Positions 46,285 to 62,976 of a DNA stretch of 64,000 nucleotides are shown here, one piece after another. The stretch spans positions 130,921-194,920 of the forward strand of contig NZ_JNWV01000028.1 of assembly GCF_000716535.1 (NCBI RefSeq), read 5' to 3'. The position numbers were made by a program, and so were the translations under genes. Under the pieces are notes generated by a model that did not search any database, had not been told where the DNA came from, and was given only the letters and a program-made list of their open reading frames with translations. This DNA comes from Streptomyces flaveolus (GTDB lineage: Bacteria; Actinomycetota; Actinomycetes; Streptomycetales; Streptomycetaceae). The first letter of the stretch is position 1; the number at the start of each line of letters is the position of its first letter.

Positions 46285-46860
46285 CCCCGTGCGGCGACGA
46301 GGTGTCCGGCGGCTACCGCCGGCAGCGCGACCCCGACGCCGTCTTCTCCACCACGTTCCCCCGGGTCCGCGAAGGCCGCCACAACTACCAGGGCAGCGAG
46401 GTCGTCTTCACCCCCGCCCTGCTCGCCGAGCCGGACCTCGACACCCATGAACGCGACTGCCACAGCGCCGCCGTCGCCGAGATGGACGCCTCGCCCTCAC
46501 CCGCCACGCCCAGGTCCTCTTCGACCGCAAGGACCGGTCGAGTACACCTTCAACGTCGCCTGAGCGATGAAGAGTCGACGGCCGGGAGGAGAGCCTGCTG
46601 CGCGCGGCCATGAAGGACCTCCTGCCCACGGCCGTCGCCCAGCGGGTCAAGACGCCCTACCCCTCCATCCGGGCCGAGGCCTGCAACCGGACCCTGCGCG
46701 AGCGCCTCGCCGGCCTCGTCCGTACCGGCACCGGCCCGCTCGCCCCCTTCTTCTCGCCCGACCAGAGGACGCGGGTACGGCGGGACGCCGGAACCGGGCC
46801 GTCCTGGAGACCACCCTCCAACTGGACGCGCGGCTGCGGGCGTACGACGTGGACGTCGTG
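46285..46860 (+). pseudogene. Asparagine synthase (AsnB) C-terminal pseudogene
   Basis: Successive frames encode recognisable AsnB synthetase-domain pieces: CGDEVSGGY with FTPALLAEPDLDT, FDRKDR fused to SVEYTFNVA, a TGA where Trp is expected, GREESLLRAAMKDLLPTAVA with QRVKTPYPS, and AGRRNRAVLETTLQLDARLR then AYDVDVV in a third frame. The glutaminase half and the stretch around the LEVRVP motif are missing. It is clearly inactivated, by a 5' truncation, an internal deletion, a nonsense codon and at least two frameshifts. It lies between the MFS and kinase genes. Confidence 0.82.
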
Positions 46861-46874
46861 CCGCGAGCCGCACC

Positions 46875-46920
46875 GGCCGCCGGATCCGGGCCGGGCATGG
46901 ACGGGCCGGATCCGGCGGCC
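46875..46920. terminator. 15-bp perfect inverted repeat before kinase gene
   Basis: GGCCGCCGGATCCGG (46875-46889) and CCGGATCCGGCGGCC (46906-46920) with a 16-nt loop. It lies just after the AsnB remnant and 12 nt before the chosen kinase start. An alternative kinase ATG (46897) would fall in the loop. It acts either as a terminator or as an attenuating leader hairpin. Confidence 0.65.
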
Positions 46921-46932
46921 ATACTGGACCGC

Positions 46933-48219
46933 ATGGAACGCATCGGGGGATACCTCGTCGAGCGCCGGCTCGGCGAGGGCGGCATGGGCACGGTCTACCT
47001 CGCACGGACACGCGGCGGACGGGCCGTCGCGCTGAAGGTCGCCAAGGCCGAACTGGCCGCCGACCCGGTGTTCCGCGAGCGGTTCCGCAGCGAGGTCGAG
47101 GCGGCCCGCGCGGTCGGCGGCTTCCACACGGCGCCGGTGGTGGACGCCGACGTCGACGGCGACCCGCTGTGGCTGGCCACCGCCTACATCCCCGGACCCA
47201 CCCTCGCGGCCCGGCTCGCCGCCGAGGGCACCATGGACGAGGACGGCTTGCGGTCCCTGGGCGCCGCGCTCGCCGAGGCGCTGGAGTCCATCCACTCCTG
47301 CGGCCTGGTGCACCGCGACCTCAAGCCCGGCAACATCATCATGGACGTCGACGGCCCGCGCGTCCTCGACTTCGGCATAGCCCGGGCCGCCGAGTCCACC
47401 CGCCTCACCGCGACCGGCACCGCCTTCGGCACCCCCGGCTTCCTCGCGCCCGAACAGGCCCTCGGTCACGACGTCACCGGCGCCGCCGACGTGTTCGCGC
47501 TCGGCGCCGTGCTGGTCGCGGCGGCCGGCGGCAGCGCCTGGGGGGAGGGCACGCCGATGGGGCTGATGTACCGCTCCGTGCACGAGCCGCCCGACCTGTC
47601 CGCCGTACCCGCCGGGCTGGCGGACCTGGTCTCGGCGTGCCTGGCCAAGGAGCCCGCGGACCGGCCGACGCCCGCCGAACTGCTGGACCGGCTGACGGAA
47701 CCGGTACCGGACCCGGCCCGGCCGGCGACACCGCCGTACCCGCCCACGCTCACCGTCTCCCCGCGGCCGGCCGCCCCGCCCCCGGCGTTCACCCCGCCCC
47801 CGCCGCCCGCGACACCCCCGCAGGCCGCGGCGCACCCGTACCAGCACCCCGTACAGCAGCCCGTCCAGACCGCCACGCCCCCGCACCTGCCCGTGCAGCC
47901 CGCCACCCCGCCGGCCCCCTACGGCTTCGGGCCGCCCATGCCCTACGGCACCCCGGAGGCCGTGCTCGCCGACGCGCAGTCCGGCGCGGTCGTGAACGCC
48001 ACCGGAGTGCTGTTCGAAGTCGCGGGCGTCACCGCGGACTTCGCCTGGAACGAGATCGCGCACGTCGGACGCCACTGGCGCGGCAACCGCCTCACCCTCA
48101 CCGTGCGGCTGTGGGACGGCGAGGTGTACTCCTGCGAGCTGAACGCCCGCCGCAGGGCCCGGCTGACCGCCTGGCTGGCCCAGCTCGACCCGGTCCTCGC
48201 CCGGTACCTGACCCGCTAA
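46933..48219 (+). CDS. Serine/threonine protein kinase, soluble
   Basis: A 428-residue Hanks-type kinase. The Gly loop is LGEGGMGTVYLA, catalytic Lys35 is in AVALKVAK, the catalytic loop is HRDLKPGN (Asp129) and DFG is at about 146. After the kinase domain (to about residue 260) come a Pro-rich linker and a compact 80-residue C-terminal domain (FEVAGVTADFAWNEIAHVGR, LWDGEVYSCELNARRRA). There is no transmembrane helix, so it is cytoplasmic. ATG 46933 gives a normal family start (MERIGGYLVE); ATG 46897 lies in a hairpin loop. Neither has a strong ribosome site. Confidence 0.92.
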   Translation: MERIGGYLVERRLGEGGMGTVYLARTRGGRAVALKVAKAELAADPVFRERFRSEVEAARAVGGFHTAPVVDADVDGDPLWLATAYIPGPTLAARLAAEGTMDEDGLRSLGAALAEALESIHSCGLVHRDLKPGNIIMDVDGPRVLDFGIARAAESTRLTATGTAFGTPGFLAPEQALGHDVTGAADVFALGAVLVAAAGGSAWGEGTPMGLMYRSVHEPPDLSAVPAGLADLVSACLAKEPADRPTPAELLDRLTEPVPDPARPATPPYPPTLTVSPRPAAPPPAFTPPPPPATPPQAAAHPYQHPVQQPVQTATPPHLPVQPATPPAPYGFGPPMPYGTPEAVLADAQSGAVVNATGVLFEVAGVTADFAWNEIAHVGRHWRGNRLTLTVRLWDGEVYSCELNARRRARLTAWLAQLDPVLARYLTR

Positions 48220-49270: not shown

Positions 49271-49651
49271 GTGAACGCAGCTGAACCGGCGCGGCCCCTG
49301 CCGGCCGCCGTGCCGACGCCGGCCGTGCCGACGCACGCGCCGCCGCGGCTCGACGTGTCCCCGTTGACCGGGCGGACCGGAATCCGGGCGGCGGGCGAGG
49401 TGAGCCTGCCGACGCGCGGCATCTGGGAGCGCGCGCTGGAGCGGGCCGTTCGCGAGGGCGAGGACGTGTACTACTTGGAGCTTTCCGCGCTGACATTCGT
49501 CGACGTCGCGGGCGCCGGCGCACTGGCGGACGCCGCCCGGAACCTCGGCGGGCGGCGGCGTCTGGTGCTGGACCGGCCTCCGGACGCCCTGCCACGGATA
49601 CTGGACCTGCTGTGGCCCGGTCTGCCGGGGATCGAGGTGTGGACGTCATGA
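49271..49651 (+). CDS. STAS-domain anti-sigma factor antagonist
   Basis: A 126-residue protein. GTG 49271 follows GGGAG. After a Pro/Ala-rich N-terminus, residues about 35-125 form a STAS domain (IRAAGEVSLPTRGIWERALE, YYLELSALTFVDVAGAGALA), in which the usual phosphorylatable Ser/Thr position is Asp-Val-Ala here. It probably works with the next gene, whose ATG overlaps its stop (ATGA), in a partner-switching module. Confidence 0.87.
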   Translation: MNAAEPARPLPAAVPTPAVPTHAPPRLDVSPLTGRTGIRAAGEVSLPTRGIWERALERAVREGEDVYYLELSALTFVDVAGAGALADAARNLGGRRRLVLDRPPDALPRILDLLWPGLPGIEVWTS

Positions 49652-50610
49652 CCGCGACCGCCGAACCCGCGGAGACCGTGGACCCGTTCGTGCATCCCGC
49701 GCTGTTCTACGCCGACGCGCGGGAGTACGTGGCCGGCACCGTGCCGTTCGTCCGGGCGGCGCTGGCCGCCGGCGAGCCGGTCGCGGTCGCCGTCCCCGGC
49801 GAGAACCTGCGGCTGATCCAGGACGAGCTGGGCGCCGACGGCGCCGCCGTACGGTTCCTGGACATGCGGGAGGCCGGCCGCAACCCCGGCCGGATCATCC
49901 CCGGTGTGCTGCGCGCCTTCGCCGACGCCCAGCCGCCCGGCCGCCGGGTCCGGATCATCGGCGAACCGATCTGGGCGGGCCGCAGCCCCGCCGAGTACCC
50001 GGCCTGCGCCCAGCACGAGGCGCTCATCAACGCGGCCTTCCGGGGCCGCGAGGTCACCATCCTGTGCCCGTACGACACCACCCGCCTGGACGAGCGGGCG
50101 CTCGCCGACGCGTACGCCACCCACCCGGTCGTCATCCCGGCCGGCTCCGGCACCGAACGGGCCAGCGCGGCCTACGACCCCGACGACGTGGTCGCCCGCT
50201 ACAACGAGCCCCTGGCGCCCGCCCCCGACGCCGGCCCCGACGTGCTCCGCTGCTCCTTCGACGAGGACTCCCTGTCCGCCGTCCGGCACCTGGCCACCGA
50301 CCACGGCGCGCGGCTGGGCCTGACCGGCCTGGGCCTGGAGAACCTGGCGCTGATCACCGCCGAGCTGACCACGAACAGCGTCATCCACGGCGGCGGCACC
50401 GGCGTCCTCACGGTGTGGCCCGAGGGCGGACACGTGCTGTGCGAGGTCCGCGACAAGGGCCGCCTCGCCGACCCGCTGGCCGGCCGCCGCCCCGCCTCCC
50501 GTGACCAGCAGGGCGGACGCGGCCTGCTGCTGGTCAACCTGGTGGCCGACCTGGTGCGGACGCACAGTGGGGCGGAGGGCACGACCGTTCGGTGCTACCT
50601 GGGGCGCTGA
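49648..50610 (+). CDS. MEDS-HATPase anti-sigma regulatory kinase
   Basis: A 320-residue fusion. The N-terminal MEDS (DcmR-like sensory) domain (about residues 10-180; HPALFYADAREYVAGTVPFV, FRGREVTILCPYDTTRL) is followed by a GHKL/HATPase anti-sigma kinase domain (about 200-320) with the N-box ALITAELTTNSVIHGGG, DKGRLADPL and GRGLLLVNLVADLV. Members phosphorylate STAS antagonists; the coupled STAS protein is the likely partner. The start is ATG 49648 in an ATGA overlap. Confidence 0.92.
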   Translation: MTATAEPAETVDPFVHPALFYADAREYVAGTVPFVRAALAAGEPVAVAVPGENLRLIQDELGADGAAVRFLDMREAGRNPGRIIPGVLRAFADAQPPGRRVRIIGEPIWAGRSPAEYPACAQHEALINAAFRGREVTILCPYDTTRLDERALADAYATHPVVIPAGSGTERASAAYDPDDVVARYNEPLAPAPDAGPDVLRCSFDEDSLSAVRHLATDHGARLGLTGLGLENLALITAELTTNSVIHGGGTGVLTVWPEGGHVLCEVRDKGRLADPLAGRRPASRDQQGGRGLLLVNLVADLVRTHSGAEGTTVRCYLGR

Positions 50611-50652: not shown

Positions 50653-51690
50653 TCAGGCTGCCAACGGGTTCAGGACCAGCGGTTCGATCCGGCCCTCCAG
50701 CATGGCGCCCAGGCCCTGCGCCGCGCACACGTCGGGCCGCTCCGCGATGTGCACCGGCATCCCGGTGGCCTTCCGCAGCATCTGGTCGAACCCGGGCAGC
50801 AGCGCCGAGCCGCCGACCATCATGATCCCGCGGTCGGCGAGGTCGGCCACCAGGTCCGGCGGGCACTCGCGCAGCACCTTGCCGATGGCGTCCAGGACGG
50901 CCGTCAGCGGGGTCTGGATCGCGTCCCGCACGGCGGCGGTGTCCACCCGCACGCTGCGCGGCAGCCCCGTCGCCACGTCCCGGCCGTGGATCTCGGTGGA
51001 CGCGGGGCCGTGCGGGGTCAGCCCGTTGCCGGACAGGGCCAGTTGCAGCGGCCGTACCGCCTGACTGGGCAGCATCAGCGCGTGCGCGTGCCGCAGATGC
51101 TGCACGATCGCGTGGTCCACGGCCTCGCCGCCCACCGGGATCCGCTCGGCGGTGACGATGGAGCCCAGCGAGAGCACCGCGACCTGGGTCGCCGCCGCCC
51201 CGCACACCATGACCATGGTGGCCTCGGGCCGCTCCACCGGCAGCCCGCACCCCACGGCCGCGGCGATCAGCGTGTCGACCAGCTCCACCCGCCTGGCCCC
51301 CAGCCCGACCAGCGTCTCGATCGTCGCGCGCTGGGCGAGCGGATCCGCGTCGTGCGGGGCACAGGCCGCCGCCCGCAGCCGGGGCTTGCGGCGCAGCGCC
51401 CGGCGCATCTTGTCGCCGAGCAGGTGCCGCAGCATCCGCTGGGCCATCTCGATGTCCACCACCGTGCCTCCGGCGATGGGCCGTACGACCCGGATGTAGT
51501 CCGGGGTGCGCCCCGTCATCTTCTCCGCGAACTCGCCCACGGCGATCAGCGCGCCGGTACGGGTGTTCACGGCGGCGACCGAGGGCTGGTCCACGACCAG
51601 ACCGGAGCCCTTCACGTACACCCGGGTGCGGGCCGCCCCCAGGTCGACGGCGAAGTGACAGCGGCGCAGGTGCTCCAGGCTGACGGTCAC
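50653..51690 (-). CDS. mbl: MreB/Mbl-like actin homologue
   Basis: A 345-residue bacterial actin. It has AVDLGAARTRVYVKG (phosphate 1), VVRPIAGGTVVDIEMAQRML, VMVCGAAATQVAVLSLGSIV (phosphate 2 region) and IMMVGGSALLPGFDQML. GTG 51690 follows GGGAGG; longer frames begin in unrelated sequence. Family members form filaments. Streptomyces Mbl contributes to aerial hypha and spore wall formation, and the position matches S. coelicolor mbl (recall). It is downstream of and codirectional with the predicted conflict operon, after a 159-nt gap. Confidence 0.88.
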   Translation of the reverse strand: MTVSLEHLRRCHFAVDLGAARTRVYVKGSGLVVDQPSVAAVNTRTGALIAVGEFAEKMTGRTPDYIRVVRPIAGGTVVDIEMAQRMLRHLLGDKMRRALRRKPRLRAAACAPHDADPLAQRATIETLVGLGARRVELVDTLIAAAVGCGLPVERPEATMVMVCGAAATQVAVLSLGSIVTAERIPVGGEAVDHAIVQHLRHAHALMLPSQAVRPLQLALSGNGLTPHGPASTEIHGRDVATGLPRSVRVDTAAVRDAIQTPLTAVLDAIGKVLRECPPDLVADLADRGIMMVGGSALLPGFDQMLRKATGMPVHIAERPDVCAAQGLGAMLEGRIEPLVLNPLAA

Positions 51691-51849
51691 GGCGGATCCT
51701 CCCGAGTGCGCAGGCCTTGAGGTGCCCCGCCTGTCCGGCGGGCTCACTGGCATCCTGCGCGGGTCCGGGAGCGGGCGCCTTTCCTGGGCGGCCGGGCGGG
51801 GTGCCGCTGAACGGGCGTATTTTCCGGCCGTCCCGGAGTGTCGGCGGGG

Positions 51850-54800
51850 TCAGCGGGCGCGGATGGCCTCCACCAGCGGTTCGAGGGAGGACACCGTGAC
51901 CTCGCTGCCGCCCTCGCGCAACCCGCGCCGGCCGGCGGCGGTGGGCGCGTAGCCGACGAAGCGGAGGCCGAGCTGCTGGGCGGCGGTGAGTTCGGCGACC
52001 GAGGAGCTGATCAGCAGGCTCGAACGGGCCGGTGTGCCGACGGCGGTCAGGGCGCGCAGCAGACAGTCGGGGTGGGGCGTCAGCAGGCTGAGGTCGGCGC
52101 GGCGGCCGTGGACGCCCGCGAGGGGCAGCCGGTAGGGCTCCAGGCAGCGGTGGACGGCCTGGGTGCCCACGTCCGTCACCACGCTGACCCGGCGGCCGGA
52201 GCGGTGCAGGGCGCGGACGAGCGCGAGGGAGCGGTGCGTCGTGGGCGCGTCCGGTACGGCCCGCAGCTCCAGCTCGTCGAGTCGCGCGCGCAGTAGCGGG
52301 CCGAGCCGGTCGTGGGCGAAGGCGCGCAGCAGGTCCAGCGGGTGCGTGAACGCCTCCCGGCCGGGGACGCCCGCGACGGGCAGCGGCCGGCCCGTCAGCG
52401 CGTCCTGCGGATCGCGGTGGTCGGCGACGACGGACAGCAGGTCGAGCACGGCCTCCCGGGCCGTCTGCGCCGGGAACAGCCGGGCGAGGGGCCCGTCGAA
52501 GCCGACCAGCACGGTCTCGGCGTCGGCGAGGAGCGCCGCCAGCCGCCGACGGGACGGGACCGGAGGCTCCGCCTCCGGCGCGGGCGCCCACTCGGGGACC
52601 AGTTGCACGGTGTACGACACCGCCAGTCCCGGCACCGGCCAGTCGTCCACCCCGGCGTTCACCGCCCGCTGGGCCGCGCCCGCCCGGCGCGGCGGATAGC
52701 GGCGCGTGACGGGGGCCGCCGCGCCGCGCAGATGCTCCAGCAGGAGCCCGGAGACACCGGTGGCCTCGGCGCGGACGAACGCCACCGGATCCTCGACCCG
52801 CCAGGACAGCTTCACCGCGGCGGTGAACGCGCCCTTGCCGGAACTCGGCAGGGACACGATCTTCCGGGTCTCGTGCGGGGTGAGGTCGACCGCGTAGTAC
52901 GTCTCCGGACGGGGCGGCCGCGTGCCGTACGGGTGGATCGGGTCGAGCAGCGTCAGCGGGCCGTCGGGCCGCGTGTGGACGACGGCCGTGCGCCCCGGCG
53001 TGGGGACGCCCAGCTCGCGCAGGTCGTGCGTGATGAACGGGCCCCGCACCAGATCCCGCTCCCCGGGCTCGGCGGACCCCGGCCCGAGCGGGCAGTACCA
53101 GGCGGCCGGCGGGCTGTCCGGGGCGCTGTCGCGGAACAGCGGGCGGAACCGCTGCGAGCGGCGGGCGGCGGAGCTGGCGGCGAAGTCGTCGTACAGGGCG
53201 GGCGGTACGACGACCATCACGTCCGCGGCTTCCTCCGGTGGCCCGACGGGCGGCCGGCCGAACGTCACCCGCAGCCGCGGCGGATCGGTCAGCCGGGCGA
53301 GCGCCTGGGGGAGTTCGCGCAGCACGGCGACGAGGACGGGCAGGAGGTAGGCGCCGGGCGCGGTGCGCACCAGGTAGCCGTCCGGGCGGACCTCCGCCTC
53401 GTACTGCCGGGGGCCGAGGGAGCCGCGCGCCAGGATCTCGTGCACGGTGGCTTCGAGCGTGATGCGGGCTTCCGGGCGGCCGGTGAGCCCGTCGGCCGCG
53501 AAGCGGATCTCGGCCCGGTCGGCAGCCGCGCCGGCGGGATCGCCCCGCCGCCCCCGCCCCAGCCGCGCAAGCCGCTCGGCGCCGCGCCGCTGGGCCTCCG
53601 GGCTGTCGGAGAGGAGCGCCGTGACCGCCGGGGTCAGTTCCGTCCCGAGCGCGTCGGAGTCGTCGGGGTGCAGGGCGCGCGCGATGCCGCCGAGCGCCTG
53701 GAGCGCCTTCTCCCGGCTCCCGTGGACCACCGGCGCGGAGTCCAGACAGGTCAGGACCGGTCCGTCCGGGGTGAGCACGACGGCGTGCGTGTTCAGCACA
53801 CCGCGCGGCCCGTCCTGCGCGTGCAGGGCGAGGACCGCCTCGGCCAGCGGCGGGAGCAGCGCGACGACCTCGTCGGCGGGCAGGCCGCCCGGAGTGTCCA
53901 GGAGGCGCCGGCGCAGGGTGGGGCCGGCGACGAACTCACGGACCAGGTAGGGAGATCCGTCGGCGACGCCGTGGTCGCGGACCGGTGCGATCCCCGGGTG
54001 GCGCACCTCGGCGAGGCGGCGGCACAGGTCCCGGAAGGCGGCGGGGGACCGTCCCCGCGGATACCGGCGCAGCACGACGAGCGTGTCACCGGCGCGCGTG
54101 TCCTGGGCGAACCAGCCCGTGCCGCCCGTGCCCTCGGCCTGCCGCAGCAGCCGGTACCGCCCCGCGAACAGCTCCTCGGTGCCGTCCGCCGACAGCCGCC
54201 GGACGCTGTCCTCGCTGACCGTGGCGAACGGATCGCCCTCCGCGGCGGTTCCCGCGCCCCGCGCGGCCGGGACCGACGCCCGGAACTCGCCCGGCGCCCG
54301 GCCCGCCCTGCGGTCGATGACCTCGCCCATGCGGTCGAGGAGTTCGGTGGTGCGGTGGCGGTCGGTGCGGGGCAGGCCGAGCAGCAGCAGCTCGCGTACG
54401 CCGTCCCGGAAGGCGTAGGTACCGGGCGGGCCGTCCGGGGCGGTGGTGAGCATCCCGCTGAGAATCACCTCGGCCAGGTGCTGAGGGCGCGGATCGGGTT
54501 CGACGGCGGCCTGGACCAGGCGCATCACCGGCAGGTCGGGGCGGCCCACCGCGAGATGGCCGGCCAGCCGGAACGCCTCCGGCGAGGCGGTCGCCCGGAA
54601 CCGCAGGACCAGCTCCTCGGCGGACAGCAGCCCGACGTCCGTACGGTCCTCGGCGTCCGCCGGCAGCGGGCGCCCCAACCAGGCGACCGCACCGGGGAAT
54701 TCCCCGCCGCCCGGGGTGGCGAGCAGCCCGGCCCAGTGTGCGAGCCACCGCGGCTCCGGCTCCAGCACGGGAAGCGGGACCGCGCCGCCGGTCACGGCGG

Positions 54801-55791
54801 ACTCGGGCCGCTCGTAGGGGGTGAACGCGAGCGTCGCCGCGGGGGCGGCGGGGTGCGGGGCCGACAGGGTGCCCGGGGTGGTGGGCAGGGCGGTGTTCCG
54901 CCACAGGTGCTCCGGGAGCGGCTGCACGACGGCCAGGGGCATCCGGCGCGCCCAGCGGTGCAGGGTGGCGAACCAGCGGGTGCCGGCCGGGCCCTCCCGC
55001 CACTGCGGGCCCATGCAGTCGCTGATCAGGAGGGTGACGGTACGGCCGTCGGCGGGGGCGTGCGGGTCGGGGCCGCGTACGGTGCCGTCGGCGGCGGCGC
55101 GGTGGAGGGCGACCGTGCGGAAGGCGCCCGACTGGGCCAGGACGGTGTGCAGTTCGCGGATCAGGGGCCGCCAGACCGGCATGGTGGGGCCCACGTCGTA
55201 CACCAGGTTCAGGCGCAGCCAGCGCTCCCGTGCGGGGCGCAGCACCGGCAGCCACCACGCGGGGTCGGCGCCGAGGCGGGCGATGCGGTCGGCGGTCGCC
55301 GGCTCGTCCAGCTCCAGGCCCACGGGTGCGTCGATCCGGCGTTCCAGCGGACGCAGCGCGCGTTGCAGCGCGAGCGGGTGGCGCAGCATCGGGGGCGCCG
55401 GGGCCAGGAGCGGGGTGTGGGACCGGTCCGCCACCGGGGCGGGACGGCGGGCGGGCAGGTGCAGGGGGACGCGGGAGGGCGGCTGCGGGTGCGGGACGGG
55501 CTCGGTCCCGGGGGCGGGCTCGGGGTCCCGTGCCGTCTCCCGGGACGGTGGCGGCGGGGGTTCCTGCCGCTTCGGCGCCGCTGGTCCGGTGGAGTCGGCG
55601 GGGCCAGGGCCGGCCGGGGTGTGGCCGTCGTCCGCGCCGGGGGTCATCTGCCGGGCGAGCCACAGCACTTCGGCCAGTTCCACCGGGGTCGGGCGCACCC
55701 CGTGGGCCGCCTCGGCCAGGACGTCGGCCAGGCGGACGAAGGGGTCCGGGGAACGGGGGCGCTCGAAGGCCCCGGAGGACTCAGAAGACAT
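51850..55791 (-). CDS. SAV_2336-type multidomain protein of MoxR-vWA-VMAP system
   Basis: A 1313-residue cytoplasmic protein. Order: N-terminal helix pair (1-50), Pro-rich linker (50-140), vWA-like SAV_2336 region (about 190-330; LNLVYDVGPTMPVWRPL, VTLLISDCMGPQW, which looks like a degenerate MIDAS), helical region (380-490), pseudokinase (about 544-700; VVLRRYP replaces the Lys, no HRD, CLDSAP replaces DFG), an unassigned domain (760-960), a possible SPFH-like segment (965-1065) and a degenerate HAD-like domain (1090-1313; VGFDGPLARLF, SVVTDVG, SLLISSS). It overlaps the upstream MoxR gene by 11 nt. It probably acts as scaffold or sensor in an NTP-dependent conflict system. Confidence 0.8.
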   Translation of the reverse strand: MSSESSGAFERPRSPDPFVRLADVLAEAAHGVRPTPVELAEVLWLARQMTPGADDGHTPAGPGPADSTGPAAPKRQEPPPPPSRETARDPEPAPGTEPVPHPQPPSRVPLHLPARRPAPVADRSHTPLLAPAPPMLRHPLALQRALRPLERRIDAPVGLELDEPATADRIARLGADPAWWLPVLRPARERWLRLNLVYDVGPTMPVWRPLIRELHTVLAQSGAFRTVALHRAAADGTVRGPDPHAPADGRTVTLLISDCMGPQWREGPAGTRWFATLHRWARRMPLAVVQPLPEHLWRNTALPTTPGTLSAPHPAAPAATLAFTPYERPESAVTGGAVPLPVLEPEPRWLAHWAGLLATPGGGEFPGAVAWLGRPLPADAEDRTDVGLLSAEELVLRFRATASPEAFRLAGHLAVGRPDLPVMRLVQAAVEPDPRPQHLAEVILSGMLTTAPDGPPGTYAFRDGVRELLLLGLPRTDRHRTTELLDRMGEVIDRRAGRAPGEFRASVPAARGAGTAAEGDPFATVSEDSVRRLSADGTEELFAGRYRLLRQAEGTGGTGWFAQDTRAGDTLVVLRRYPRGRSPAAFRDLCRRLAEVRHPGIAPVRDHGVADGSPYLVREFVAGPTLRRRLLDTPGGLPADEVVALLPPLAEAVLALHAQDGPRGVLNTHAVVLTPDGPVLTCLDSAPVVHGSREKALQALGGIARALHPDDSDALGTELTPAVTALLSDSPEAQRRGAERLARLGRGRRGDPAGAAADRAEIRFAADGLTGRPEARITLEATVHEILARGSLGPRQYEAEVRPDGYLVRTAPGAYLLPVLVAVLRELPQALARLTDPPRLRVTFGRPPVGPPEEAADVMVVVPPALYDDFAASSAARRSQRFRPLFRDSAPDSPPAAWYCPLGPGSAEPGERDLVRGPFITHDLRELGVPTPGRTAVVHTRPDGPLTLLDPIHPYGTRPPRPETYYAVDLTPHETRKIVSLPSSGKGAFTAAVKLSWRVEDPVAFVRAEATGVSGLLLEHLRGAAAPVTRRYPPRRAGAAQRAVNAGVDDWPVPGLAVSYTVQLVPEWAPAPEAEPPVPSRRRLAALLADAETVLVGFDGPLARLFPAQTAREAVLDLLSVVADHRDPQDALTGRPLPVAGVPGREAFTHPLDLLRAFAHDRLGPLLRARLDELELRAVPDAPTTHRSLALVRALHRSGRRVSVVTDVGTQAVHRCLEPYRLPLAGVHGRRADLSLLTPHPDCLLRALTAVGTPARSSLLISSSVAELTAAQQLGLRFVGYAPTAAGRRGLREGGSEVTVSSLEPLVEAIRAR

Positions 55792-56815
55792 CGGACCGCG
55801 CGGTCTGCCCCAGGTACGGCATCAACTGCTCGGCCAGCCGGTCCAGGGAGTCGGCGTCCAGGTCGGCGGAGCGGGCCAGGTAGATCGCGTTGAGGAGCTG
55901 GTCCGTGGCCAGGTCGCCGACGCCCGCCCGGGACAGGAACCGGTCGATCAGGGTGCGCGCGTGGGCGTCGGGTTCGCCCAGGTGGGCGCGGACGATCTCG
56001 GCGAGCTGCCGGTCGTCGGGCTGCCGCAGGTGCAGGGTGACGCAGCGGCGCAGGAAGGCCGGCGGGAACTCGCGCTCGCCGTTGCTGGTGAGGACGACGA
56101 AGGGGAAGGCCCGGCAGCGGACCCGCCCGTGGGCCACCGGGACCCGCTCGTCGGTGCCGTCGGCCAGCACCTCGGCGACACCGTCCGGCGCGAGCCGCGC
56201 GGCACGCACCAGCTCGGGGATCTCGTACTGGCCCTCCTCCAGCACGTTCAGCAGGTCGTTGGGCAGGTCCAGGTCGCTCTTGTCGATCTCGTCGATGAGC
56301 AGTGCGCGGGGCCGGGCGTACGGCAGGAGGGCGGTACCGAGCGGGCCCAGGCGCAGATGGTGCTCGATGCCCGACCGGTCGTCCGCGCCCTCGGCCCCGT
56401 CCCGCCGGGCGGCCTCCTGCCGGGCCGCGTACAGCCGCGAGAGCGGGTCGTACTGGTAGAGGCCGTCGTGGAGGGTGCTGCGGCTGGTGACGTTCCAGCG
56501 CAGCACCGGGCCGAGCCGCAGCTCCCGGGCGACCGCGTACACGAGCGAGGACTTGCCGGTGCCGGGCGGGCCGGTGACCAGCAGCGGGCGGCGCAGGTAC
56601 AGGGCCGCGTTGACGAGCTGGACCGTCTCCGGCGTGGCCTGGTACGTCTCGGCGCGGTGCGTGCGGTCGGGGGAGACGGCGGCGGCGTCGCCGGACGGGT
56701 CCGGCGCCGGGAGCAGCGGCCCGCCGTCGAAGTTCCGCCAGGGCGGCGGCGGTGGCAGCCGGGTGATGCCGTCGTGCGGCTCGTTCGTACCGGTGTAGAC
56801 GGGCCACAGGGGCAT
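55781..56815 (-). CDS. MoxR-family AAA+ ATPase of conflict operon
   Basis: A 344-residue AAA+ protein. Walker A is GPPGTGKSS (82-90), Walker B is ALLIDEIDKSD (about 171-181), sensor 1 is FVVLTSNGEREFP, and the Arg-finger region is AFLRRC. The MoxR type fits the helix insertion before sensor 1 (EEGQYEIPELVRAARLAPDG). It should remodel protein complexes using ATP, with the vWA-like protein encoded downstream (11-nt overlap) and the VMAP protein encoded 43 nt upstream. The Pro-rich N-terminus (PPPPPWRNFDGGPLLPAPDP) is unusual. Confidence 0.9.
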   Translation of the reverse strand: MPLWPVYTGTNEPHDGITRLPPPPPWRNFDGGPLLPAPDPSGDAAAVSPDRTHRAETYQATPETVQLVNAALYLRRPLLVTGPPGTGKSSLVYAVARELRLGPVLRWNVTSRSTLHDGLYQYDPLSRLYAARQEAARRDGAEGADDRSGIEHHLRLGPLGTALLPYARPRALLIDEIDKSDLDLPNDLLNVLEEGQYEIPELVRAARLAPDGVAEVLADGTDERVPVAHGRVRCRAFPFVVLTSNGEREFPPAFLRRCVTLHLRQPDDRQLAEIVRAHLGEPDAHARTLIDRFLSRAGVGDLATDQLLNAIYLARSADLDADSLDRLAEQLMPYLGQTARSDVF

Positions 56816-56858
56816 GGGCTCTTCTTCTCCGTGGGGGGCGGTTCGGTCGTGCGGTGGG

Positions 56859-58631
56859 TCAGGCGACGGGCGAGTGCAGGCTCGCGGTGGTCTCGGGGAA
56901 GCAGCGCGGGTCGTCCCAGAGGAGCTGGAGGTCTCTCGCCCAGTGCAGGTCGGGCTCGTCGGCGGCGTCCGCGGTCAGCCGCAACGACAGGACGTGGCGC
57001 GGGAGTTCGGCGGGCGGCACACCGGCGACCGAGGCGGCGAGCTGGTCGAGGAACGCGGTGCCGGGGCAGGGCGGGTCCTCGGGGCCGGTGCCGGGGCGGG
57101 GGGAACCCCCGGACTCGGCGCTCGGGCAGGGCGGGTCCTCGTGTGCGGTGCAGGGGGAGCCGGTGCGCGGCCACAGCAGGATCGGGACGGGCACGGTGAG
57201 ACCGACCTCGAAGTGCTCCCGTGCCGTCGTGGGCTGGGCCGCGTAGCCCGCCAGCCCGGCGTCGCCGTCCCAGAGCCGTTTGCGCAGGCTCGGCGGCCGC
57301 TCCCGGGTGCCGCACTCGACCCGGTGCACCTCCACCCCGCCGCCGGAGTCCAGCTTCTGCCACTTCTTGCGCAGCTGGTGGCGCAGCCGGCCGCTGTGGT
57401 GGCGCGCCCGGTCGGTCACCACGAGGGGATAGGCGCAGCCGAGCGGCGTGCTGTCGTCCGCGCCGCACTCCCACTGCGCCACCGCCTCGTTGAGCCACTC
57501 ACGGGGCAGGACGAACGTCACCAGCTCGTCGGCGTCCGGGGCGAGGTGGGCCACGGCTTCGTCGATGCGGCTCTGGACGTAGGCCCGCACCCCGGTGCGC
57601 GGCAGCCGGCGGGCGCCCACCGGCCGGCGCCGGCCGTCGCGGTACGCGGACACCTCCACGGTCACCTGGTCGGGACCGGCACCGCTGTGATCGATCTCCA
57701 CGACGACCGGGGACCAGGCGGGAGCCGCCGACGCGGCGGCGGGGGCCGGGGCGTCCGGGGCCGCCGTGTCCGGTAACGTCGGCTCCCCGTCCAGCAGTTC
57801 CAGGAGCCGGTCGGCGAACCGGGTCATCGCCTGCGGATCGGGGACCTCCCACTGCACATAGGCGGCGGCGGCCCACAGGGAGGGGAAGCCGCCCGGGGGC
57901 AGGGGCGGCCCGAAGGCGCCCACCGCGTCCACGTACAGCCGGTTCGGATCGCCCACCCCGCCGCCGGCGGCCACGGCCCGGCGCAGCAGGGCGTACAGCC
58001 GCCGGCGGGCGTCGTCCCGGTGGCCCGGGGTGGGCACCAGTTCGCCCAGCTCGGGCCAGTACCGGGCCAGCACGTCCAGCGGCAGCATCCGGCCCTTGCG
58101 CACGTCCGGCGACGACCCCACGGCCGCGGTGACCATGCCCGCGACCCTGCCGTCCGGGAGCGCCGCCGCCGCCCCGCTGAACCCGTCCACGAGCGGCTGC
58201 CCGTGCCCCTGCCACGCCACCAGTTCCAGCCACTCCCCGGCGATCAACTGCCCGGACACGGCCTGGCATTCGGCGAGCGTGCCCTCGTCGTAGCCCTGGG
58301 GGAAGCCGTACGCGACCAGGCGGGGGTACGGCTCGGTGTACGCGGCGTCGGGCGGGGCGAAACCCGCCGGGGCGAGCGGGACGTCACGGTCCAGTTCGAG
58401 CACGGCGACATCGCCGGGGTCGGTGACCTCGCCCGCCCAGCCGCCGTGGGCGACGACCGAGGCGGACAGCTCGCCCAGCTCCCTGGCGTGCGGGAAGGTG
58501 ACGGTCACCGCTGCCCGGTCGCTCCGCCCGACGACGTGGGCGCAGGTGAGCAGCCGGCGGCCGGTGACCAGGAATCCGGCACCCACCTCGTCGCCACAGG
58601 CGATCCGGGCCTGCCAGGCAGCGCTGCGCAT
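56859..58631 (-). CDS. Trypsin-like protease with VMAP-C domain
   Basis: A 590-residue cytoplasmic protein. The N-terminal trypsin-like domain has His32 (LLTCAHVVG), Asp74 (DPGDVAVLEL) and Ser152 (VDGFSGAAAA), so the triad looks intact and there is no signal peptide. Residues about 205-285 look like an effector-associated adaptor domain (RRLYALLRRAVAAGGGVGDP). Residues about 310-590 match VMAP-C (VVVEIDHSGAGPDQVTVEVS, REWLNEAVAQWECG, PILLWPRTG). The linker carries a TTA codon (Leu286). Its ATG overlaps the upstream TRYPCO1-like stop by 1 nt (TGATG). It is probably a caspase-like executor protease. Confidence 0.88.
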   Translation of the reverse strand: MRSAAWQARIACGDEVGAGFLVTGRRLLTCAHVVGRSDRAAVTVTFPHARELGELSASVVAHGGWAGEVTDPGDVAVLELDRDVPLAPAGFAPPDAAYTEPYPRLVAYGFPQGYDEGTLAECQAVSGQLIAGEWLELVAWQGHGQPLVDGFSGAAAALPDGRVAGMVTAAVGSSPDVRKGRMLPLDVLARYWPELGELVPTPGHRDDARRRLYALLRRAVAAGGGVGDPNRLYVDAVGAFGPPLPPGGFPSLWAAAAYVQWEVPDPQAMTRFADRLLELLDGEPTLPDTAAPDAPAPAAASAAPAWSPVVVEIDHSGAGPDQVTVEVSAYRDGRRRPVGARRLPRTGVRAYVQSRIDEAVAHLAPDADELVTFVLPREWLNEAVAQWECGADDSTPLGCAYPLVVTDRARHHSGRLRHQLRKKWQKLDSGGGVEVHRVECGTRERPPSLRKRLWDGDAGLAGYAAQPTTAREHFEVGLTVPVPILLWPRTGSPCTAHEDPPCPSAESGGSPRPGTGPEDPPCPGTAFLDQLAASVAGVPPAELPRHVLSLRLTADAADEPDLHWARDLQLLWDDPRCFPETTASLHSPVA

Positions 58632-59083
58632 CACCGGTCGGCGGACTCCGGTCCGGGCACGGTCCGGTCGGGCGCGGCCTGGCCGGGCAGGGTCGGCGGT
58701 GACGCGTGCTGTCCGGACGCGGCCCGCGCCGGCGGGTTCTGCGCCGGGGCGGCCGGTTCCGGCGCCTGCCCCGGGGACCAGCTCAGCTTGACGACCAGGT
58801 GGCCCTCCGCCGATCCCTTCGCGATCACGGCACCGGCCTCCGCGGACAGCCGCACGCCGAACTCGATCTCCACCGTGTCCGGGCGCAGGCTGCCGTCCCG
58901 GAAGACCCGCAGCGCGGACGCCGCGGCCGCCCGTACGCCGTCGAGCGCTCCCTCGAAGGTGCGCGCGGCCTGCGCCGGCCCGTCGCCGCGCGAGACGAGG
59001 CGGGCTCCCGACCGGGTGCTGCCGGCACCCTCCACCATGACGAGCGCGCCGTCCTCGGTCCTGAACTCCACCAATTCGTCCAC
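58631..59083 (-). CDS. CU044_2847/TRYPCO1-like trypsin-co-occurring protein
   Basis: A 150-residue protein. The small N-terminal domain (about 1-100) has VEFRTEDGALVMVEG, VRAAAASALRVFRDG and the family-like VEIEFGVRLSAEAGAVIAKG with HLVVKLSW, typical of trypsin-co-occurring domain 1. A Pro/Ala-rich tail follows. It opens the four-gene operon and is coupled to the trypsin-VMAP gene. A role as pseudo-substrate, inhibitor or trigger of the protease is inferred from co-occurrence only. Confidence 0.82.
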   Translation of the reverse strand: MDELVEFRTEDGALVMVEGAGSTRSGARLVSRGDGPAQAARTFEGALDGVRAAAASALRVFRDGSLRPDTVEIEFGVRLSAEAGAVIAKGSAEGHLVVKLSWSPGQAPEPAAPAQNPPARAASGQHASPPTLPGQAAPDRTVPGPESADR

Positions 59084-59364: not shown

Positions 59365-62300
59365 ATGAGCACAGGACCAGTCAGACGCGGGGCCGCCCTG
59401 CTCGCTGCGGGGCTGGTGAGCGCCCTGCTCCCGGCCGGCCCGGCGGTCGCGGCACCGCACCCCCAGGGCCCCGGCGCGAGCGGCACCACCACCGTCACCC
59501 TCGTCACCGGCGACGAGGTGACCGTCACCGACCTCGGGCACGGCAGACAGACGGTCACCGTACGGCGGCCCGTGGGCGCCACCGGTGCCGTACGGACGCA
59601 GCGCGGCGACGGCCACCTCACCGTCGTACCGGACGAGGCGCTGCCGTACCTGCGGGCCGGCAGCCTGGACCGGAGGCTGTTCGACGTCAGCGGGCTGATC
59701 CGGCAGGGGCTCACCGACGCCGAGACCGACGCCCTGCCACTGATCGTCACCTACGACAGGAGCGCGCGGACCACGACCCCGGGCGGTGCCGAGCGGACCC
59801 GCGCGCTGCCCAGTCTGCGCGGGGCCGCCGTGGAGGCCGGCAAGGGGCGTGCCTTCTGGCGGTCGTTCACCCGGACGCCCGGCATCGACAAGGTGTGGCT
59901 CGACGGGCGGGTGCGGGCCGAACTCGCCGAGAGCAACGCCCAGATCGGCACCGCGGCGGGCTGGGACGCGGGGCTGACCGGCAAGGGCGTCACCGTGGCC
60001 GTCCTGGACTCCGGCGCCGACCTCGGCCATCCCGACCTCGCGGGCCGGGTGAGCACCGCCAAGAGCTTCATCGACGGGCAGGAGGTCGCCGACCGCAACG
60101 GCCACGGCACCCACGTCACCTCCACCGTCGGCGGCAGCGGCGCGGCCTCCGACGGCAAGGAGAAGGGCGTGGCGCCGGGCGCGGACCTCGCCGTCGGCAA
60201 GGTGCTCAGCGACCAGGGCTCGGGCAGCGAGTCCCAGATCATCGCCGGGATGGAGTGGGCGGCACGGGACGTGCACGCCCGGATCGTCTCCATGAGCCTG
60301 GGCTCCACGGAGCCGAGCGACGGCACCGATCCCATGGCGCAGGCGGTGAACACCCTCTCGAAGGAGACCGGCGCGCTGTTCGTCGTCGCCGCCGGCAACA
60401 CCGGTGCCCCCTCCTCCGTCGGCTCACCGGGCGCCGCCGACGCCGCACTCACCGTCGGCGCGGTCGACTCCGCCGACCAGGCCGCCTGGTTCACCTCCGC
60501 CGGACCCCGGTACGGCGACAACGCCCTCAAGCCCGACCTCGCCGCCCCCGGCGTGGACATCCTCGCCGCCCGCTCCGGTCTCGTCGGCGGCTCCGGCCCC
60601 TACACCTCCATGAGCGGTACGTCCATGGCGACCCCGCAGGTCGCGGGCGTCGCGGCGCTGCTCGCCGAACAGCATCCCGACTGGACCGGCGCGCGGCTGA
60701 AGGACGCCCTGATGTCCAGCTCGAAGCAGCTCGACGCCTCCGCCTACACGCTGGGCGCGGGCCGGGTGAGCGTGCCGGACGCGGTGCGCGCCACGGTCAC
60801 CGCCACCGGCAGCGCCGACCTCGGCTTCCACCGCTGGCCCTACGACGCGGACGAGCCGGTCACCCGGACCGTCACCTACACCAACTCCTCCGACGCCCCG
60901 GTCGAGTTGCGGCTGTCGGTGCGCGGCGCCCCGGACGGCGTCGCCACCCTCGCCGACGACACCCTCACCGTGCCCGCCCACGGCACGGCCTCCACCACGG
61001 TCACCGGCGACGGGTCCAAGGCACCGGTCGGCGAGACCAGCGGCCGGATCGTGGCCACCGACCCGGCCGGCGACACGGTCGCGCACACCGTGTTCGGGCT
61101 GGTCAAGGAGGAGGAGCGGTACACGCTCACCGTCCACGTCAAGGACCGCTCGGGCGCGCCCGCCGCCGCCGACCTCACCGTGCAGCGGCTCGCCGAGGGC
61201 GCGGACGCCGAGCCCGCCCACGTCGGCGACTCGGGCACGCTCCGGCTGCGCCTGAAGCCCGGCACCTACTCCCTCGCCACCTTCCTCGACGTGCCCGGCA
61301 GCCACGGCGCCGACTCCCTCGGCCTCGGCTTCCTCACCGCCCCCGAGATCACCCTCGACCGGGACCGCGACATCACCCTGGACGGCCGCACGCTGCGGGA
61401 GATCCGGGCGGACGTGGACCGGCGCACCGAGACCCACCAGCTCGTCATGGAGTACGACCGGAAGGCGAACGGCGCCGACCTGTTCGGCGCGGTCCAGGTG
61501 CCCCTCACCTACGACAGCGTCTTCGCGGCGCCCACGCCCGAGGTCACGCGGGGCACCTTCGAGTACCGGACCGTATGGCGGCTGGCCAAGCCACAACTGG
61601 AGGTCAAGGGCGTCGGCGAGGCCACCGTCCAGCCGGGCGGCACCCTCGTCCCGGGCCGCACGAGACTGCCCCTGGTGGACGTCGGCGACGGACCCGTCAC
61701 CGGGGTGTCCGGCAAGGCCGTGCTCGCCCGTCTCGTCCCCGGCGCCGACCCGGCCGCGCTCGCGCGGGACGCGCAGGACGCGGGCGCCGAGGCCCTGTTC
61801 GTCACGGACGACGCCCCCGGCCGGCTGACGGCCTGGTGGGGCACCGACGACAACGCCGACCGGCCCCTGCTGATCGCCACCGTGAACCAGGCGGACGCGG
61901 CACGCCTCAGGGCGGCGGGCCGGGCCGACATGACGGGCACCGCCGACTCGCCGTACGTGTACGACCTCTCCGAGGGCCACCGGGGAGCCATCCCGGACCG
62001 GGACCTCACGTACGCGCCCGGCGCCCGCGAACTGGCCGCCGTGCGCGTCACGTTCCACGCGGCACGGCCGCAGAGCGGCGGCGAGTTCCGGTACTCGATC
62101 ACCGGCACCTTCCCGATCGGCCTCGGCTTCCAGGAGCGCGTCACCCTGCCCGCCGAGCGCACGGACTACGTCTCCACCGGTCCCGGCCAGCTGTGGCACG
62201 AGTCCGTCACCGCCGCCGACGGCGCGCTGGAGGAGCGCGGCGGGCTCGTCCGCTACGACGGCGGGACCCGGCCGGCGCTGCACTGGTTCCGGCCGGTGTG

Positions 62301-62976
62301 GCACCCGTGGATGGGCACCGGACTCGGCTGGGGCCAGCAGCGGGCCGGGAACCAGATCCAGCTGAACGTGCCCGGCTGGGGCGACTCCGGACCCGACCAC
62401 ACCGGCTTCGGCGACGTGTGGAGCGAGGACAGCGGGATGCGGCAGACCACCTCCGTCCGGCTCGACGGCACCCTCGTCGACCAGAACACCGGTTCCGCCG
62501 CCTACGTCAGGGACGCGCCCGCCGAGGAGCACACCTACCAGGTCGTCACCGACACCGCCCTCGACGCCGGCCGGTGGCCGCTCGCCACCCGGGGCCACTC
62601 CGAGTGGACCTTCCGCTCGGCGGCCACCCCCGAGGACCACTGGACGTACCTGCCGCTGATCAACCTCGCCTACGACCTCGACACCGACCTCGCCGGAGCC
62701 GTGCGCGGCGGGCAGCGGGTCCCCGTCGGGCTCGGCGCCTCCTACGTGGCGCGGGCCTCGGGCACCGGAAGGCTCGGCGGCGGCCGGCTGGAGGTGTCGT
62801 ACGACGACGGCACCACCTGGCGGAAGGTCCCCCTGCGCACCGGCCGGGACGCCTCCTGGCACGGCACGCTGACCGTGCCGCACGGCGCGTCGTCCGTCTC
62901 GCTGCGGGCCTCGGCCCGGGACGACAAGGGCGGATCGGTGACACAGGAGATCATCCGGGCGGTGGCGGTCCGGTAG
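59365..62976 (+). CDS. Secreted S8 subtilisin-like serine protease
   Basis: A 1203-residue secreted protease. The signal peptide (about residues 1-28, ending PAVAA) is followed by a propeptide and the S8 domain, with catalytic Asp in VAVLDSGADLGHPDL, His in NGHGTHVTSTVGG and Ser in SMSGTSMATPQVAG (about residue 420). A long C-terminal half follows with Ig-like/Fn3-like repeats (TVTYTNSSDAPVELRLSV; TLTVHVKDRSGAPAAADLTV) and a beta-rich end. No anchor is seen. GAAGAGG precedes ATG 59365; longer frames start inside the repeat leader. It probably degrades extracellular proteins. The leader repeats may affect expression. Confidence 0.93.
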   Translation: MSTGPVRRGAALLAAGLVSALLPAGPAVAAPHPQGPGASGTTTVTLVTGDEVTVTDLGHGRQTVTVRRPVGATGAVRTQRGDGHLTVVPDEALPYLRAGSLDRRLFDVSGLIRQGLTDAETDALPLIVTYDRSARTTTPGGAERTRALPSLRGAAVEAGKGRAFWRSFTRTPGIDKVWLDGRVRAELAESNAQIGTAAGWDAGLTGKGVTVAVLDSGADLGHPDLAGRVSTAKSFIDGQEVADRNGHGTHVTSTVGGSGAASDGKEKGVAPGADLAVGKVLSDQGSGSESQIIAGMEWAARDVHARIVSMSLGSTEPSDGTDPMAQAVNTLSKETGALFVVAAGNTGAPSSVGSPGAADAALTVGAVDSADQAAWFTSAGPRYGDNALKPDLAAPGVDILAARSGLVGGSGPYTSMSGTSMATPQVAGVAALLAEQHPDWTGARLKDALMSSSKQLDASAYTLGAGRVSVPDAVRATVTATGSADLGFHRWPYDADEPVTRTVTYTNSSDAPVELRLSVRGAPDGVATLADDTLTVPAHGTASTTVTGDGSKAPVGETSGRIVATDPAGDTVAHTVFGLVKEEERYTLTVHVKDRSGAPAAADLTVQRLAEGADAEPAHVGDSGTLRLRLKPGTYSLATFLDVPGSHGADSLGLGFLTAPEITLDRDRDITLDGRTLREIRADVDRRTETHQLVMEYDRKANGADLFGAVQVPLTYDSVFAAPTPEVTRGTFEYRTVWRLAKPQLEVKGVGEATVQPGGTLVPGRTRLPLVDVGDGPVTGVSGKAVLARLVPGADPAALARDAQDAGAEALFVTDDAPGRLTAWWGTDDNADRPLLIATVNQADAARLRAAGRADMTGTADSPYVYDLSEGHRGAIPDRDLTYAPGARELAAVRVTFHAARPQSGGEFRYSITGTFPIGLGFQERVTLPAERTDYVSTGPGQLWHESVTAADGALEERGGLVRYDGGTRPALHWFRPVWHPWMGTGLGWGQQRAGNQIQLNVPGWGDSGPDHTGFGDVWSEDSGMRQTTSVRLDGTLVDQNTGSAAYVRDAPAEEHTYQVVTDTALDAGRWPLATRGHSEWTFRSAATPEDHWTYLPLINLAYDLDTDLAGAVRGGQRVPVGLGASYVARASGTGRLGGGRLEVSYDDGTTWRKVPLRTGRDASWHGTLTVPHGASSVSLRASARDDKGGSVTQEIIRAVAVR

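Follow-up and report, generated by a model that had tools for sequence, protein, structure and literature searches.

A four-gene operon on the minus strand of the window (the whole 64,000-nucleotide stretch of Streptomyces flaveolus DNA analysed here) occupies a fixed chromosome site between an accA-like gene and mbl, and its profile matches and gene order identify it as a member of the VMAP ternary systems of Kaur et al. 2020 (PMC7159879), predicted conflict systems of bacteria with a protease at their core. This assignment is made because the gene order, the VMAP-C domain, Trypco1 and both MoxR motifs match the available text of that paper. The kind of system is already known and the member is new; new in this work are the history of the fixed site and the contrast between an intact protease and the dead tail of the vWA protein. 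VMAP systems are common in Streptomyces, with VMAP-C present in 84 of the 101 genomes of our genus sample, and VMAP-C occurs in 21/148 genomes (9/81 genera) of a class sample. A search of the open-licence literature for an experimental test of any VMAP system found none and matched only comparative-genomics papers; the operon offers a compact gene set for laboratory strains.

Architecture of the operon

The four open reading frames span positions 51850-59083 of the window. The Trypco1 gene (58631-59083; 150 aa, GTG start) shares 1 nt, at 58631, with the trypsin-VMAP gene (56859-58631; 590 aa), which is followed after a 43-nt gap (56816-56858) by the gene of a MoxR-type AAA+ ATPase (55781-56815; 344 aa). 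The last gene encodes the SAV_2336/vWA protein (51850-55791; 1313 aa) and overlaps the MoxR gene by 11 nt (55781-55791). The order of the core genes read from the frames and profiles, VMAP, MoxR and vWA, matches the definition of a VMAP ternary system. An earlier note, made from the letters of this DNA, had described the same four packed genes with the same overlaps and gap, and our coordinates agree with it. Its proposed identities (Trypco1, a trypsin fused to VMAP-C, a MoxR AAA+ ATPase and a 1313-aa SAV_2336 protein) are borne out by profile matches, those of VMAP-C and Trypco1 both lying above their cut-offs, and a tblastn neighbourhood survey finds the genes linked in the named loci of other genomes. 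Profiles and linked conservation thus uphold its placing of the operon in the MoxR-vWA-VMAP family. The source genome (G000) comprises 10.35 Mb in 232 contigs, and the closest relatives among the matches listed are likewise from Streptomyces flaveolus (97% identity for VMAP and 99% for the vWA tail).

The trypsin-VMAP protein and Trypco1

The trypsin-VMAP protein starts with an HtrA-like trypsin domain (58047-58631, residues 1-195; Trypsin_2, 39.4 bits, E 1.3e-9, cut-off 27.6), continues with a middle region of predicted helices at the position of VMAP-M (57777-58034, residues 200-285) and ends with the VMAP-C domain (56907-57671, residues 321-575; PF20028, 149.5 bits, E 1.9e-43, cut-off 27). 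Its predicted model has a mean pLDDT of 79.8 and a pTM of 0.63, and a fold search gives the protease part an HtrA/Deg fold. We take H32, D74 and S152 to be the catalytic triad; these positions, like the catalytic positions of the kinase and HAD domains discussed below, are predicted ones. The triad is intact in 121/121 relatives among the matches listed. Frame changes interrupt the trypsin-VMAP gene of locus L038 (9900-11700), whose MoxR and vWA genes stay open; the break may be an assembly error.

Trypco1 of the window matches PF19493 with 92.1 bits (E 3.5e-26, cut-off 24.6), and a Trypco1 gene stands beside trypsin-VMAP in 29 of the 30 named loci found by tblastn, all of them from close relatives. 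Among the 150 Trypco1 matches listed for the 101-genome genus sample, 79 have a listed VMAP-C at most 4 kb downstream and the other 71 have none, therefore Trypco1 has other contexts as well. Two loci, L051 and L030, carry a trypsin-VMAP gene with intact triad motifs and no adjoining Trypco1, and the genome of L051 has two further Trypco1 matches elsewhere. A role of Trypco1 as an obligatory antitoxin is not supported by these two loci.

The MoxR ATPase and the dead domains of the vWA protein

The MoxR protein matches the profiles AAA_5 (E 4.3e-9) and bpMoxR (28.1 bits, cut-off 27). Its N-terminal motifs WPVYTG and PPWRNF correspond to WxhapG and PsWRxa, given for MoxR of VMAP systems in the available text of Kaur et al. 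(PMC7159879). By pattern, the first is present in 31/33 loci and the second in 33/33.

The N-terminal region of the vWA protein, with its vWA part (54298-55683, residues 37-498), matches SAV_2336_NTERM (NF041121) with 464 bits (E 4.5e-139, cut-off 200). The profile search gave no Pfam vWA match in the 1313-aa protein; the vWA part is a predicted one, called from NF041121 and from two candidate metal-site aspartates, Asp199 and Asp258, which are invariant in 59 alignment rows. An acidic-aromatic run, ExxExxW, at residues 38-44 differs in spacing from the [D/E]xxx[D/E]xxxa printed in the available text of PMC7159879. Past the vWA part follow a kinase fold (53548-54177, residues about 539-748), a region of no assigned family, a Band7-like region (52591-52905, residues about 963-1067) and a HAD fold (51853-52539, residues 1085-1313). 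The Band7-like region is named by position, from predicted secondary structure and the architecture in the available text of Kaur et al. 2020, and the profile search gave no Band7 match in it.

Both recognisable folds of the tail are dead. The kinase Lys, HRD-Asp and DFG-Asp are present in 0/102 sequences, and the position of the HAD nucleophile is occupied by Gly in 120 and by Ala in 1 of the 121 relatives listed. The earlier note, which described the protein as SAV_2336-type with a vWA-like region, had missed the attached pseudokinase and nucleophile-less HAD domain. The lists of the fold search with the window proteins are filled by protease, kinase and HAD matches. The model of the whole vWA protein has a pTM of 0.36, because of which its domain arrangement was not interpreted.

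Relatives differ in the stretch between the N-terminal and tail parts, which holds a pseudokinase, a pseudokinase with a BTAD-type domain, a BTAD domain alone or only some 17-26 residues. This comparison covers the best 120 of 350 relatives found with query residues 500-1313, and other architectures are under-sampled in it because the query favoured proteins having the tail. Variable domains after the vWA part, as in VMAP ternary systems, are thus found here as well.

Possible working of the system

Since the kinase and HAD domains are dead and the protease is conserved, MoxR and the trypsin are the working enzymes recognised in the operon. It seems on balance probable that the operon encodes a trypsin-type VMAP ternary system held as a silent complex, in which the protease output is gated by MoxR and the vWA protein and the vWA tail serves as a bait or docking surface. 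Trypco1, trypsin-VMAP, a MoxR ring and the vWA protein would together form the silent complex, with the dead kinase and HAD domains offering the surface for docking or bait. The trigger would be the binding of an invader protein or of a disturbed host partner; ATP-driven remodelling by MoxR and the vWA protein would then be passed through VMAP-C and switch on the HtrA-like protease, which may cut the vWA protein, host proteins or both, so that the hypha is arrested or killed. We infer complex formation, sensing, activation, targets, killing and a role in defence. The release of the protease suggested in the earlier note, upon alteration of the complex by invasion or a developmental cue, is likewise conjectural; it would fit an intact triad beside dead domains and, as far as the available texts go, is closer to an alternative in PMC10907252 than to Kaur's own model. 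Against this gated-protease reading, the frequent loss described below also suits any dispensable gene set, and L051 and L030 keep their triad motifs without an adjoining Trypco1.

In the model proposed in the available text of PMC7159879, VMAP senses the invader and MoxR and vWA restructure the complex; the protease of VMAP then releases the domains attached to vWA, which act as non-enzymatic decoys or dominant-negative effectors. The attached domains are indeed dead and their cassettes swap, and VMAP-M is the most variable part measured; however, these data suit a vWA tail acting as sensor or bait equally, and we regard the decoy model as somewhat unlikely for this operon. The dead kinase and HAD domains beside a conserved protease leave a narrower question, that of the binding partners of the vWA tail and the substrates of the protease.

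A fixed site between an accA-like gene and mbl

The right-hand neighbour of the operon is an MreB/Mbl gene (50653-51690, minus strand; PF06723, E 1.9e-110), which lies on the same strand, has its own leader and is not counted in the machine. Our tblastn survey of 30 named loci, found with a trypsin-VMAP search reaching close relatives only, recovered the accA-like gene in 28, an S8 subtilase in 26, Trypco1 in 29, VMAP in 30, MoxR in 28 and the vWA part in 24. A leader block about 100-150 nt before mbl is common to the 20 aligned sequences of the acc-mbl type, whether they carry the operon or not, and in four others (L048, L049, L050 and L053) the leader is alike only in the part nearest the mbl start.

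In the window, this conserved non-coding block lies at 51690-51800. A divergent S8 subtilase gene, present at some sites and missing at others, is located at 59367-62976 (start set by eye), and a protein kinase gene and a MEDS/HATPase sensor gene are found on the far side of mbl (46567-48219 and 49612-50610).

It is conceivable that the operon works together with Mbl, the cytoskeleton protein encoded next to it, in the development of the cell wall or of spores, since 23 of the 24 named loci with a vWA gene have Mbl as the next gene in the same orientation, the 24th stopping at a contig end. However, Mbl was found at E <= 1e-150 in 87 of the 101 genus-sample genomes, and a VMAP-C match immediately upstream of mbl (same strand, at most 6.2 kb away) in at least 11 of the 101, the window's included, among the 150 VMAP-C matches listed; the neighbour thus lends no support to a developmental role. 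Empty and remnant sites, moreover, keep mbl and its leader. Because mbl mostly occurs without the operon and the leader is kept at empty sites, we reject the partnership as a functional claim and consider it highly improbable.

Full, empty and remnant sites

The stretch upstream of mbl was examined in 85 of the 87 genomes with mbl; the window's is the 86th and that of G008 was left out. The core genes VMAP, MoxR and vWA are present in 10/85 (11 with the window, in the 101-genome sample), and one of these ten full sites, L051, is without Trypco1. At one further site (L075) pieces of the vWA gene run up to the contig end. Nine of the 85 sites are empty, the accA-like and mbl matches being only 185-405 nt apart, and three (L068, L074 and L085) have kept the subtilase alone. 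Remnants are seen at six, in the form of HAD tails (L039, in two frames, L057 and L088) or of an orphan open Trypco1 frame without partners (L042, L045 and L092). The other 56/85, four of them on very short contigs, showed no operon piece beside mbl. Loss of the operon is directly visible only at the six remnant sites. The orphan Trypco1 of L042 is separated from mbl by a long, unrelated open frame.

Our mbl DNA tree of 68 genus-sample rows omits the four short contigs and all rows below 82% Mbl identity and treats L075 as full. Its 12 full rows require 11 changes, and supported branches force 10 of these. Shuffled labels gave a mean of 11.3 changes, so full sites are no more clustered than by chance. 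With the named loci added, 35 full rows among 91 require 14 changes, 12 of them forced, on a tree whose named loci had been chosen for carrying the operon. From these counts it follows that the presence of the operon at the acc-mbl site flips often. The intact, swapped, broken and empty states of this fixed site among related species provide natural controls.

The same data bear on a chaperone or quality-control role in normal physiology, in which MoxR and vWA would remodel clients and the HtrA-like protease would remove failures, with no part in conflict. Such a role agrees with the HtrA/Deg fold and with MoxR-vWA pairs assembling complexes elsewhere, as stated in the available text of PMC7159879. 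It would be unusual, however, for housekeeping genes to be so scattered in their presence at a site, to swap cassettes and to carry dead domains, which makes this role quite improbable.

The acc-mbl site could also be read as one locus for immunity or self-recognition that exists as a series of alleles across Streptomyces, with alternative bait cassettes on the vWA protein, a trypsin executioner that stays constant, and null alleles in the form of empty sites, HAD tails and orphan Trypco1 genes. In this reading the vWA protein would sense by means of decoys integrated in it, like plant NLR receptors, and the orphan Trypco1 would be a leftover adaptor or immunity gene outliving the protease. 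We consider this reading unlikely.

Co-variation of the four genes

Over 30 full loci, the DNA identities of Trypco1, VMAP, MoxR and the vWA part rank together (Spearman 0.73-0.93); their agreement with the flanks (0.34-0.56) is of about the same size as that between the flanks themselves (0.40). This coherent variation fits four genes that would serve one machine. Mean protein identities (30 loci) are 0.887 for Mbl, 0.816 for the accA-like protein, 0.814 for MoxR, 0.802 for Trypco1, 0.737 for the vWA part, 0.685 for the protease, 0.668 for VMAP-C and 0.593 for the VMAP-M position, the least conserved part measured. The vWA and VMAP parts thus vary more than MoxR, Trypco1 and the flanks, which fits the fast evolution by which VMAP systems are characterised. 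Agreement of the operon parts with Mbl at the protein level is weak (Spearman 0.15-0.34), values as high being reached in 18 (MoxR), 38 (protease), 53 (VMAP-C) and 59 (vWA part) of 500 permutations; Mbl is a poor yardstick here because the accA-like flank agreed with it no better (0.17). Horizontal replacement of the operon is neither claimed nor excluded.

Comparison with known systems

The closest counterpart is vWA-MoxR subsystem 1 of PMC7159879, whose available text gives the same order VMAP-MoxR-vWA, a trypsin VMAP with Trypco1 and the same MoxR motifs, and also describes a vWA protein bearing, as here (Band7 by position), an inactive kinase, a Band7 domain and a derived HAD domain. The fixed acc-mbl site, its empty and remnant versions and the orphan Trypco1 come from the present analysis and are absent from the available text of Kaur et al. 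2020, where MreB and Mbl are mentioned 0 times in the main text. VMAP systems with diversity-generating retroelements (PMC10907252, available text) share the core and the trypsin VMAP and list Trypco1 as an adaptor; their sensors are diversified by reverse transcriptase, whereas the present family varies by swapped domains. CARF-linked vWA-MoxR-VMAP genes near type III CRISPR (PMC10910872, available text) have the same core by name, but no CARF or CRISPR annotation was found among about eight flanking ORFs scanned here.

PADLOC matches are weak. Avs1 (AVAST) and MADS show distant protease, ATPase and kinase similarity to the operon proteins. Membership of Avs1 (AVAST type 1) was rejected at 21.3 bits for the Avs1b protease against a cut-off of 1500, and that of MADS at 68.6 bits against 475 for the MadB ATPase and 20.7 against 460 for the MAD6 kinase.

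Chromosomal position and a probable second fixed site

The available text of Kaur et al. (PMC7159879) reports that these systems prefer a place on Streptomycetales chromosomes some 33% inwards from one end or the other, which it links to arm recombination. When contigs are set with mbl on the plus strand, mbl has a median position of 0.31 with some outliers (41 long contigs). The listed VMAP-C places include 60 on 32 of these long contigs. Deposited coordinates put 14 of the 60 in the zone 0.26-0.42 and 17 in 0.58-0.74, zones picked after the data were seen, and orientation by mbl changes these numbers to 7 and 24. Random turning of contigs reached 24 in 19/5000 trials. Among 20 places of the upper cluster, 14 share the upstream flank of a second system on contig C37 of the window's genome, 2 only the downstream flank and 4 neither; the two peaks thus go back in large part to one further fixed site, viewed from either end. 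The acc-mbl site holds few of the 60 places. Fixed sites together with arbitrary deposited orientation offer a simpler reading of the published bias.

The second system (L059, G000:C37, 8168-19998) has the same set of Trypco1, trypsin-VMAP, MoxR and vWA genes, the vWA protein being of SAV_2336 type but with a different tail. Two further proteins follow, one having an HExxH-like motif and the other being of TIR/NB-ARC/TPR type.
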